64,000 bases of DNA from Aurelia coerulea (taxonomy: Eukaryota; Cnidaria; Scyphozoa; Semaeostomeae; Ulmaridae), in assembly GCA_039566865.1 (NCBI GenBank), contig CM076954.1, forward strand, positions 10,440,001-10,504,000. Direction: 5' to 3'. Each line of letters opens with the position of its first letter. Positions within the stretch are counted from its first letter, which is position 1. Under the pieces are notes generated by a model. It was not told the DNA's origin, did not search any database, and worked only from the letters and a program-made list of their open reading frames with translations. Below, one piece after another: positions 27,901 through 39,900 of this stretch. A program made the translations under genes and the position numbers.

Positions 27901-30900
27901 AGTTATCTGCTAACTAGTTTCGCCCACTAGGGCATCTTCAGAGCAACTGATTTATTAGGAGTATCAACCTCTATTTATAGTATTTTGTATTTACAGCAAA
28001 GACTGCAACTCAAACAATTGATGCTTCAGAAAGATACTCGCACTGCGAAAGACGCTAAGAAGAAACGAAACGAGAAGAAACGAAGGAACAGGGTAGATGT
28101 ACACCCGAGGTGGTTTTGAATTCAAGGAATCAGCCACTGGCTACGAAGGACTGCAACCAGTTGGATCGGCGAATCTCGTTCGACGAAAAGCAATCTGACA
28201 TCAGACGAAAAGAATCAAACAACAACAACAACAACAACAACAACAACAACAACAACAACAAAGAAGCAATCTGACGACAAAGGACAATAAGAACAGCAAC
28301 AACAACATCATGGAAAGCGACAACAACGGAAAGCAACAAAGAACAACGACAACAACGACAACAGCAAGAAACAACGCAACAAAAGTTAAGAAACAATCTG
28401 ACGTGAAATGACAAGAACAGCAACAACAACAAGGAGACCCTAGATCGGAGGACAACGAAGAACAAGCAAAAACAACAGCCTCGGAAGGATGAAACTTCAA
28501 CCGGAAGGACCTTATATGGACAATAGTTAACTTTAATTAAACTCTTCTGCTATAAATACAGGTTGACTTGTTAGATTTATTCAGTTGCTCTGAAGATGCC
28601 CTAGTGGGCGAAACTAGTCAGAACTGGAAAAGAAAAAGCGTGAAAGACCACACAGATGCCTGTTTCTTTGAGTAGTTAGGCCCTCTTCTAACCGTACACT
28701 ATATATAATATTGAGTCTGGACGCAGACGCCGAATGGCCCGCTATAAAGAACAGGAAGCGCTTTGAAGTCAACAACAAAACCAACTTCAACACAAGACAC
28801 TTACAGCAAAGACTGCAACTCAAACAATTGATGCTTCAGAAAGATACTCGCACTGCGAAAGACGCTAAGAAGAAACGAAACGAGAAGAAACGAAGGAACA
28901 GGGTAGATGTACACCCGAGGTGGTTTTGAATTCAAGGAATCAGCCACTGGCTACGAAGGACTGCAACCAGTTGGATCGGCGAATCTCGCTCGACGAAAAG
29001 CAATCTGACATCAGACGAAAAGAATCAAACAACAACAACAACAACAACAACAACAACAACAACAACAAAGAAGCAATCTGACGACAAAGGACAATAAGAA
29101 CAGCAACAACAACATCATGGAAAGCGACAACAACGGAAAGCAACAAAGAACAACGACAACAACGACAACAGCAAGAAACAACGCAACAAAAGTTAAGAAA
29201 CAATCTGACGTGAAATGACAAGAACAGCAACAACAACAAGGAGACCCTAGATCGGAGGACAACGAAGAACAAGCAAAAACAACAGCCTCGGAAGGATGAA
29301 ACTTCAACCGGAAGGACCTTATATGGACAATAGTTAACTTTAATTAAACTCTTCTGCTATAAATACAGGTTGACTTGTTAGATTTATTCAGTTGCTCTGA
29401 AGATGCCCTAGTGGGCGAAACTAGTCAGAACTGGAAAAGAAAAAGCGTGAAAGACCACACAGATGCCTGTTTCTTTGAGTAGTTAGGCCCTCTTCTAACC
29501 GTACACTATATATAATATTGAGTCTGGACGCAGACGCCGAATGGCCCGCTATAAAGAACAGGAAGCGCTTTGAAGTCAACAACAAAACCAACTTCAACAC
29601 AAGACACTTACAGCAAAGACTGCAACTCAAACAATTGATGCTTCAGAAAGATACTCGCACTGCGAAAGACGCTAAGAAGAAACGAAACGAGAAGAAACGA
29701 AGGAACAGGGTAGATGTACACCCGAGGTGGTTTTGAATTCAAGGAATCAGCCACTGGCTACGAAGGACTGCAACCAGTTGGATCGACGAATCTCGCTCGA
29801 CGAAAAGCAATCTGACATCAGACGAAAAGAATCAAACAACAACAACAACAACAACAACAACAACAACAACAACAACAACAAAGAAGCAATCTGACGACAA
29901 AGGACAATAAGAACAGCAACAACAACATCATGGAAAGCGACAACAACGGAAAGCAACAAAGAACAACGACAACAACGACAACAGCAAGAAACAACGCAAC
30001 AAAAGTTAAGAAACAATCTGACGTGAAATGACAAGAACAGCAACAACAACAAGGAGACCCTAGATCGGAGGACAACGAAGAACAAGCAAAAACAACAGCC
30101 TCGGAAGGATGAAACTTCAACCGGAAGGACCTTATATGGACAATAGTTAACTTTAATTAAACTCTTCTGCTATAAATACAGGTTGACTTGTTAGATTTAT
30201 TCAGTTGCTCTGAAGATGCCCTAGTGGGCGAAACTAGTCAGAACTGGAAAAGAAAAAGCGTGAAAGACCACACAGATGCCTGTTTCTTTGAGTAGTTAGG
30301 CCCTCTTCTAACCGTACACTATATATATATATATATATATATATATATATATCGAAACTTATAGAAGGCATTAACAAAAACAACACTCGTTTCTTTGGCG
30401 ACTAGTTTCGTCTGTTCATGCAGACTCTTCAGGCTAAAATGATTAATTTACAGTGGCAACAGAGTTTATGTTTATGGTTCTTATTCATATGGTGTAAGAT
30501 TTCTAATTATATTTATCTGACGTAAGATTCAATTTCCGTCTGGCTTTAGTTAATTTAGTTAACTTTATAGGCATAGGAATTTTAGTTCTAGGGTTTGCTT
30601 TAATGTCCGTTTCCTTAAACCTGGATACTGTGTTATTATCATTTCTGTTACAGTTATAGTTATTGGTAGTAGCTCCAAGGACTTTCTCAAGTCGGTCTAT
30701 TTCTGCGCCAATTCTTTCAAGTGCAGATTTATCAAAAAATTCGCCATTTTCTTCAGCGTGCATCATTTTTTCAAATTCTTGTATGTATTTGGATTCAAGC
30801 TCTCTAATGTTGCTTATGGTATCATTAGGGCAAATATCGTATTTCTTTTCTTTACATGGGTGTTCTGTGACAGCCATCTTTTTTGACGTTGTTTCTGTAA

Positions 30901-36900: not shown

Positions 36901-39900
36901 TTTTTGTTAATGCCTTCTATAAGTTTCGATATATATTTTACTTGCGTATTGTACTTTTTTCGTTTCGACATATATATATATATATATATAGACTCAAGAA
37001 AAAACACATTCGTTAAACGTTTCGGCGCAAGCCTTCATCAGTAATGACTTTTCAAAATCAGACAGAGCATACATATACATCTCGAAATTCAAAAACAATA
37101 TAAAACAATAGCCTGAGCGGGATCCCGCTAAATACAATAAATCGCAAAAGGTGTTAAAATAGGGATGTTACCAGAAGCGGCAAGAGGAAGATAAAAGAAA
37201 GCGCAGAGTATAGAGCCGCTAAAGTCGGCGGCAGGGGTCTGTCTCGCGGGAGCTAAACAAATGTGTGTAATAACAAAACAAGCAATAGAAAGATCCAAAA
37301 GCGGATTGGCAGAAAAGAGATCCTTAAAAAACAGCGTGTGACCTTAACGAAAAGCTGAGCGCAAACATCAAAACAACCAAACAACCGAAATGTAAATAAA
37401 AATCAAATCTATGTATCAACCTGCCTAGTGTTTAATCCCTTAGGGGCAAAGCAATCCAGCCGATATTGCCAGAAGCTTTCCCGCATCCTATTTCCCCCCG
37501 TTAGCCTATCGATTATCTTTATACTAATATCCTTCAGAAACCCGTGGTGGCCTTCTCCAGTAAAATGCCTGAAGAATTCCGCCTGGGGTACTGAGGCCCC
37601 CGAATTAAACTTATTACTGCACGCCTTGTAATTGTTAAACCTAAGCCTAAAAGGCGTGCAGGTGCTGCCAACATATTGTACACCACAAACAGTACATTCC
37701 AACAAATACACAACATTTGACGAGTCACAATTAAACGAATAGTTTATCCTATATTCCCGGCTATCTATGTTTGAATGAAAATGTTCACTATTACTCATGA
37801 CATTACACACTTGACAACGAGATTTACCACAACGAGAACATCCCTTCTTATCAGTCCCCCCATTTCCCTCACTGAGCCTAGCCTTAACAAGTATATCCTT
37901 AAGGTTCTTACATCTCCTAAATGCTATTAAAGGTGGCTCAGGAAATACCACTCTATGCTCCTCCGAGTTTGTGAGCATAGAATGGAGTCTCCTGGCAACC
38001 TTCCCCAAACTATTGAGTGCTGGATGGTATGTGGCAACAAGTGGAACCCTTGTCACCCCTGGCACACGAAGAAGGCGATCCCCTATGGTCAGGCTCTTAG
38101 GTTTCGTAGGATATGTTCGGAAGATCGCCAATTTCAGGAGAGGGTAGGCGAGTTAGCTGGATGGCTTAAGGACAGGGGCTACGAAGAGTCTTTAGTTAAC
38201 GAACAAATAGATAGGGTACGTAGGTTGGATAGGACAACTCTTCTAGCAAATGCGGGAAATAGGACCAATAACCAAGGGAGGGGGGAAAGGGTTCCACTTG
38301 TTGCCACATACCATCCAGCACTCAATAGTTTGGGGAAGGTTGCCAGGAGACTCCATTCTATGCTCACAAACTCGGAGGAGCATAGAGTGGTATTTCCTGA
38401 GCCACCTTTAATAGCATTTAGGAGATGTAAGAACCTTAAGGATATACTTGTTAGGGCTAGGCTCAGTGAGGGAAATGGGGGGACTGATAAGAAGGGATGT
38501 TCTCGTTGTGGTAAATCTCGTTGTCAAGTGTGTAATGTCATGAGTAATAGTGAACATTTTCATTCAAACATAGATAGCCGGGAATATAGGATAAACTATT
38601 CGTTTAATTGTGACTCGTCAAATGTTGTGTATTTGTTGGAATGTACTGTTTGTGGTGTACAATATGTTGGCAGCACCTGCACGCCTTTTAGGCTTAGGTT
38701 TAACAATTACAAGGCGTGCAGTAATAAGTTTAATTCGGGGGCCTCAGTACCCCAGGCGGAATTCTTCAGGCATTTTACTGGAGAAGGCCACCACGGGTTT
38801 CTGAAGGATATTAGTATAAAGATAATCGATAGGCTAACGGGGGGAAATAGGATGCGGGAAAGCTTCTGGCAATATCGGCTGGATTGCTTTGCCCCTAAGG
38901 GATTAAACACTAGGCAGGTTGATACATAGATTTGATTTTTATTTACATTTCGGTTGTTTGGTTGTTTTGATGTTTGCGCTCAGCTTTTCGTTAAGGTCAC
39001 ACGCTGTTTTTTAAGGATCTCTTTTCTGCCAATCCGCTTTTGGATCTTTCTATTGCTTGTTTTGTTATTACACACATTTGTTTAGCTCCCGCGAGACAGA
39101 CCCCTGCCGCCGACTTTAGCGGCTCTATACTCTGCGCTTTCTTTGATCTTCCTCTTGCCGCTTCTGGTAACATCCCTATTTTAACACCTTTTGCGATTTA
39201 TTGTATTTAGCGGGATCCCGCTTAGGCTATTGTTTTATATTGTTTTTGAATTTCGAGATGTATATGTATGCTCTGTCTGATTTTGAAAAGTCATTACTGA
39301 TGAAGGCTTGCGCCGAAACGTTTAACGAATGTGTTTTTTCTTGAGTCTATATATCTATTTTATTACATATTGAGTAGGAGCTTGTGAGAATATATATTAA
39401 TTTTTTGCTTAGAATAGGAATTGAAGGGTAATCAGATGGAGCGTACTATATCAATCATAAATACATTTATCAATTTAATTAAGCTAGAGCACCACCGCAA
39501 CTTCCTGGAATTTTGTAATGCTGAGAATGTAATTCCACATGGTCTCCGATTAAAGAAGGTTCCATCCTTACTTGGGAAATTGTCAGAAGGCTTCAACCAG
39601 TCATGGAGAAATGTCCTGGACACCGCACAAGGACAGTTGATGACACTGTTGATAATCCGATACAGAGAACAGCTAGAAGATTCAAAGAACAATGCGTATG
39701 AGTTGCTGAGAAGAGTTCGCCCAAATCTCAATAGAGAGGAGCTGGAACACATCACTGGACGGGTCAAGGAATGCAAAGAATCACTTGAAAAGAAAAGAAT
39801 CAGCAAGGCTACTAAACTCTGCAAGGATGCTGGCATTGATGTTTCTATTGGCAATTTGCATGCCCTTCGGACCATGGACCATCACACCAACGAATTATTT

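Follow-up and report, generated by a model that had tools for sequence, protein, structure and literature searches.

Animal retrozymes and Penelope-like elements (PLEs) are the described systems closest to the repeat reported here, and both, like all published work below, are cited from excerpts of the sources named. Animal retrozymes measure about 170–400 nt (PMC7229834, Cervera and de la Pena 2020), are said in the excerpts of PMC7761336 to show no protein-coding regions, and accumulate as circular RNA, and those of the non-LTR (long terminal repeat) kind are tandem units with one hammerhead of type I layout each, without a reverse transcriptase (RT) and in co-occurrence with PLEs. PLEs with a GIY-YIG endonuclease combine an AT-rich target, two alternative 3' ends (an optional 'tail'), tandem units and a hammerhead-like motif before the open reading frame (ORF) (PMC11167929). 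The subject of this report, hereafter unit C, is a tandem repeat in a stretch of 64,000 nt from Aurelia coerulea (GCA_039566865.1, contig CM076954.1, 10,440,001-10,504,000, forward strand), hereafter the window. It shares the listed structural traits of both systems, its type I hammerhead being a candidate one, and the head-to-head pairing of the PLEs of this window, but its unit is 1353 bp long, codes for a conserved protein, is known here from DNA alone, and has neither the RT nor the endonuclease that PLEs carry. Unit C would work like a retrozyme or a non-autonomous PLE, but fails two retrozyme traits and is without PLE enzymes. With a probability of roughly 0.7, it is a non-autonomous retroelement within the retrozyme/PLE sphere that bears a hammerhead, codes for a protein and is copied by a PLE enzyme priming from both strands.

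Two other repeat-associated systems are partly comparable. Terminons resemble C in a hammerhead near the 3' end beside a short target-matching repeat (telomere repeats there, (TA)n in C), and they and other accessory-ORF PLEs include putatively structural coiled-coil ORFs; unlike C, a separate unit of 1.35 kb, Terminons reach 40 kb and carry an RT (PMC6431247). The satellite-like W-elements of Schistosoma also form repeats, with functional hammerheads in some families, but are described in the excerpted source as having almost no continuous ORFs (PMC8490949).

The initial annotation of the window had proposed an array of exact 1353-bp units at 30354..36965. The repeat is present with a period of exactly 1353 bp, but it extends over 30345-36974 and is laid out as a head-to-head pair, in which the minus strand carries about 3.1 units and the plus strand about 1.8. 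Among the four complete ribozyme-to-ribozyme monomers, three (two minus, one plus) are identical letter for letter, while the fourth, the 5'-most one of the minus strand, is 1357 nt long and carries a single 4-nt insertion at unit position 40. This insertion (34415-34425), the sole difference among the complete units, falls at the site of the short 3' end, the presumed start of reverse transcription. The parts of the array are as follows, with A and B denoting two further hammerhead arrays described below.

30345..34527, minus strand: minus half of the C array; 3 complete units, at most 55 nt beyond the last cut (short 3' end), 65 nt before the first cut (5' end)
34521..36974, plus strand: plus half of the C array; a 5'-truncated unit, one complete unit, 87-93 nt beyond the last cut (long 3' end)
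30320..30352: (TA)n tract where the minus half ends (short 3' end); array B has its 3' end on the same tract
36970..36990: (TA)n tract where the plus half ends (long 3' end); a PLE has its 3' end on the same tract
30394..30438, minus strand: hammerhead motif; cleavage is predicted after GTC, at the 30400/30399 junction
31747..31791, minus strand: hammerhead motif, same sequence
33100..33144, minus strand: hammerhead motif, same sequence
34457..34501, minus strand: hammerhead motif, same core
35490..35534, plus strand: hammerhead motif, same sequence
36843..36887, plus strand: hammerhead motif, same sequence

Measured from predicted cut to predicted cut, a unit comprises 113 nt, an ORF of 1137 nt and 103 nt. 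This ORF of 378 codons is the sole frame of at least 150 aa, and unit C contains neither an RT domain, in agreement with the initial annotation, nor a GIY-YIG endonuclease, both of which are present in the neighbouring PLE. At the head-to-head junction the two halves overlap by 0 nt exactly, or by 7 nt if one mismatch is allowed. Both outer ends sit on (TA)n, an AT-rich target, with the long 3' end extending 39 nt beyond the short one in the unit. The minus half spans 3.1 units, and its template was therefore at least that long, or circular: either a circle or an uncut multimer.

The protein encoded by unit C is preserved throughout the array. As previously annotated, the four full ATG-initiated ORFs have identical translations and a partial fifth follows them, matching at 99.3% over residues 78-378.

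30503..31639, minus strand: 378-aa ORF, copy 1, full, ATG
31856..32992, minus strand: 378-aa ORF, copy 2, full, ATG
33209..34345, minus strand: 378-aa ORF, copy 3, full, ATG
34520..35425, plus strand: 378-aa ORF, copy 4, 5'-truncated (residues 78-378, identity from tblastn)
35642..36778, plus strand: 378-aa ORF, copy 5, full, ATG

Shuffling the unit 2000 times gave a longest ORF of 197 codons, against the 378 observed. The protein is basic (isoelectric point 9.35; 55 K, 44 E) and mostly helical in an AlphaFold model (mean predicted local distance difference test score, pLDDT, 68.7; predicted template modelling score 0.39), in which helices at 23-76, 84-114, 139-226 and 271-325 are the better predicted. 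No convincing match was found in Pfam, NCBIfam or PDB. A single-sequence search retrieved 11 relatives, and the profile search suggested by the initial annotation, which scored the 8000 candidates sharing most words among entries clustered at 90%, raised this to at least 32, those 11 among them. Nine of the 32 are near full length (377-433 aa, 96-100% query coverage, 35-85% identity), the other 23 being shorter, and the closest among the matches listed (P0002) is 98% identical. Conservation, judged by eye, concentrates in the N-terminus, a stretch containing VPKHLVPKH and a C-terminal IPxPI...RRKL motif, and a quick tree of 18 rows showed several deep groups, with long-branch warnings. In a neutral simulation of two lineages, the frame survived intact on both sides in 30 of 300 runs at a mean aa identity of 91% and in 1 of 300 at 80%, and in none of 300 at each of 64, 53, 43, 31 and 22%. 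Judged from these comparisons, the conserved protein family carried by unit C is real, and purifying selection on the ORF would be the simplest reading. Four relatives lie on contigs of 1365-1598 nt, about one unit, which fits short-read collapse of a tandem or circular repeat, although only as a hint.

A hammerhead core (CTGAAGA, a 5-bp stem II, GAAA, CTAG, TC) occurs once per unit and six times in all, so that the single hammerhead-like motif per unit described earlier recurs in every copy. A strict pattern of this core matched the C unit once, on the sense strand, and none of 3000 dinucleotide shuffles; a loose pattern matched the window 16 times on the plus and 20 times on the minus strand, against a shuffle mean of 1.8 per strand. 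The C motif reads CTGAAGA...GAAACTAGTC, whereas that of the PLEs reads CTGATGA...GAAACGTTTA. Arrays A and B have the same core variant as C and are about 70-85% alike to each other in stretches. Helix III of C consists of one A-U pair capped by the palindromic loop CUAG. With the pattern used, all 12 hammerheads of arrays A, B and C have this palindrome after GAAA, and the rest of the window has no further instance. Amphibian hammerheads likewise combine a weak, single-pair helix III with a palindromic tetraloop, and are reported to cut efficiently only as dimers (PMC7229834). Pairing of two C motifs through ACUAGU is predicted, at an energy 6.0 kcal/mol lower than that of two monomers. The dimer fold of A also pairs at the palindrome (6.6 kcal/mol below), but with part of the core paired as well, while that of B makes no use of it; single-motif folds of B and A gave z-scores of -2.64 and -3.45, respectively. 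As a motif the putative C ribozyme is well supported, as a fold weakly.

Unit C lies within a cluster of insertions with its head-to-head layout, the PLEs among them sharing its target and its two classes of 3' end as well. The members other than C and a SINE-like (short interspersed element) array are given below.

18599..23386: two PLE halves set head-to-head, the minus half at 18599-21928 and the plus half at 21930-23386
25184..25930: two PLE halves set head-to-head, the minus half at 25184-25435 and the plus half at 25433-25930
25956..27995, minus strand: array A, hammerhead units of 931-934 nt, head-to-head with array B
27991..30332, plus strand: array B, hammerhead units of 807-813 nt, partly alike to A
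36985..38060, minus strand: PLE fragment, head-to-head partner of the PLE at 38049..42682
38049..42682, plus strand: PLE, candidate helper, tandem array with 1.4 copies of a 3329-bp unit
42781..45772: two PLE halves set head-to-head, the minus half at 42781-44145 and the plus half at 44141-45772

Between 18.6 and 45.8 kb, all six pairs mapped by blastn (four PLE/PLE, one A/B, one C/C) are head-to-head, and the SINE-like array between the first two of them makes a seventh. The 5' sides meet, with blastn extents overlapping at the six junctions by -1, 3, 5, 7, 12 and 5 nt, and the 3' sides point outwards. Twelve of the 14 outer ends sit on (TA)n, in seven distinct tracts (neighbours share tracts), and the two that do not, the right end of the second PLE pair (25184..25930) and the left end of array A, adjoin each other. 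The 3' ends of the PLEs form two classes, on either side of a 43-nt tail (own count), as those of C do with 39 nt. Of eight PLE ends, four are short, three are long and one stops within the tail, and the five PLE or C pairs all combine a short end with a longer one, the longer end of the second pair being the one within the tail. Such a pattern would arise once in 16 if ends were drawn evenly (1 in 32 for five pairs each mixed), and is thus a lead and no proof. It perhaps reflects asymmetric use of two RT start sites.

The candidate helper PLE has an open frame at 39421-42258 (945 codons from TTG; first ATG 39436) that starts 2.4 kb from C, with Pfam scores of 28.8 bits for RVT_1 (E 1.3e-6; cut-off 29.6) and 17.8 bits for GIY-YIG (E 0.0042; cut-off 22.6). 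A lizard PLE enzyme cut and extended both DNA strands in vitro, preferred AT-rich DNA with an ATT motif, and started reverse transcription at two adjacent internal sites matching an optional genomic 'tail' of 30-40 bp, the start site not differing between strands (PMC11167929). C shares its insertion traits with the adjoining PLEs and carries no RT of its own, which makes PLE mobilisation the best reading; C probably depends on such an element. The retro-copied, hammerhead-bounded, coding and RT-less unit envisaged by the initial annotation gains support from the ORF conservation and from the PLE-like ends and pairing. Its description of animal retrozymes as non-coding and a few hundred nucleotides long agrees with the excerpted literature (PMC7229834, PMC7761336); as for C being itself a retrozyme candidate, the likely mechanism fits, but 1353 nt against about 170-400 and a conserved ORF against a non-coding unit do not.

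A pathway consistent with this footprint can be proposed. Tandem C copies would be transcribed, and neighbouring hammerheads may pair, ACUAGU on ACUAGU, and cut the multimers into RNAs of 1353 nt, some of which might be ligated to circles or left uncut. The RNA would also serve as mRNA of the basic, mostly helical 378-aa protein under purifying selection, which might bind its own RNA and deliver it to the PLE RT, its most likely role, or else help the ribozyme. The PLE enzyme would then cut both strands of a (TA)n tract, the DNA ends would prime at a UAUAUA stretch located about 50 or 90 nt beyond the cut site, and the RT would copy a circle once or several times, or a multimer. Joining of the two cDNAs, 5' side to 5' side, would yield head-to-head tandem arrays with one short and one long 3' end.

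Several observations weigh against the reading of C as a ribozyme-processed, PLE-mobilised element. Transcription, cleavage and circles of C are predictions from DNA. With the Rfam model Hammerhead_1 (RF00163), a scan of 101 nt gives the C motif 19.3 bits (E 0.012), short of the gathering score of 34, and a 1461-nt scan finds hammerhead type III alone at the same place (16.7 bits, E 3.1), with no other ribozyme family in C at E<=10. Scanning the whole window at E<=1 returned no hammerhead; array B and the PLE motif match type III alone (E 1.5 and 1.3, respectively), and array A has no Rfam hammerhead match. Stem I of C, drawn by eye, has two pairs, an A-C mismatch at the third and then further possible pairs; stem I is absent from energy folds confined to the core, whether of one motif or of two, and the 56-nt single-motif fold is no better than shuffles (z -0.23). 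In the lizard PLE, ribozyme mutants left insertion in vitro unchanged (PMC11167929), which speaks against a ribozyme role in insertion; that lizard ribozyme itself required protein. As to the ORF, a protein database cannot reveal broken C copies, and the relatives are known here as proteins, apart from their surrounding DNA. Finally, since DNA similarity between C and the neighbouring PLE is at chance level (E 7.8), the case for PLE dependence of C is built on the ends, the target and the layout that they have in common. By the same comparison, C is no simple deletion derivative of a PLE.

Of the other explanations, a two-component (split) PLE with C as one of its halves is unlikely; the C protein would be an accessory or ORF1-like product of a separate ribozyme-processed RNA, and each half would need the other. 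C and the PLEs do lie in one insertion cluster with the same target and ends, and both have a hammerhead-like motif, then a 3'-end signal, then an ATG; the C protein has been kept over deep divergence, and PLEs lacking the endonuclease are described with two ORFs, to which the coiled-coil ORFs of Terminons may be added (PMC6431247). The AlphaFold helices of C residues 84-226 (31/48/37) also resemble those of the PLE N-terminus encoded at 39436-39840 (28/47/32), the latter model resting on 2 sequences with a mean pLDDT of 64, but profiles of the two regions are no more similar than controls, which leaves homology unsupported. GIY-YIG PLEs are, moreover, described in the excerpts with a single ORF (PMC6431247), and the PLE here already has an RT, an endonuclease and its own N-terminal region.

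Satellite amplification at the DNA level, or an assembly artefact, is a much less probable account: recent amplification or duplication during assembly could also produce three letter-identical units, but hardly two opposed halves with different 3' ends, both matching the published PLE signature, or the recurrence of this layout in six further insertions that differ in sequence. Least credible of all is the idea that the genome has captured a circular RNA replicon akin to delta agents or Obelisks. The likeness lies in a size of about 1.35 kb, one basic helical protein and a ribozyme, delta-like agents and Obelisks having about 1-1.7 kb and one protein, with ribozymes in delta agents and some Obelisks (PMC7761336, PMC11721086, PMC13096302). 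Rfam scans and the strict pattern found no hammerhead on the antisense strand of C, whose ribozyme motif is thus on the coding strand only. Delta agent RNA is strongly self-paired, whereas the circularised C unit (49% paired sense, 56% antisense) folds with a lower stability than 12 shuffles do on average (z +1.55 for the sense and +1.64 for the antisense strand). C looks, besides, like a genomic retro-copy whose array ends resemble those of retroelements, and its protein has no convincing match in Pfam or PDB. The resemblance to delta agents raised by the initial annotation is accordingly not supported beyond general layout.

Other features of the window were also recorded. The A/B pair (25956-30332) appears as if two different RNAs had served one insertion, and a 261-codon frame of array A (GTG start) has one weak relative. 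The SINE-like array (23435-25149) repeats a unit of 274 bp with a hammerhead-like CTGATGAAGGC..GCCGAAAC motif between (TA)n tracts, is head-to-head (minus to 24676, plus from 24678), and contained no tRNA detectable by ARAGORN. Two PLE subtypes (19028-21853, 39421-42258) are 87% identical over the whole protein and 56% over the first 204 residues. Further off lie a second RT ORF with a zf-RVT hint (9042-10994), a 32-bp tandem array (45810-46453), a 111-bp satellite array (58852-60204) and a pol ORF with RT, RNase H and integrase domains (61245-63875), which we take to be Gypsy-like.

A wider picture, offered tentatively and still doubtful, is that the PLEs and C units form a split ribozyme-processed system, in which one RNA would give the RT-endonuclease and another, about 1.35 kb long and possibly translated as a circle, would give a dedicated RNA-binding partner, both being inserted by paired two-strand priming into (TA)n. 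No protein-coding retrozyme was found in the literature searched, which covered few subscription papers and no preprints and was partly in excerpt, and if the split system were true, C would be the first protein-coding retrozyme family as far as that literature goes. Ribozyme-bearing non-autonomous retroelements have so far been described as protein-free, whereas C carries a conserved protein family, which makes the translation of ribozyme-made circles and the recruitment of PLEs by RT-less elements testable. Head-to-head pairs with one short and one longer 3' end, in addition, provide a genomic footprint for two-strand priming by PLEs.

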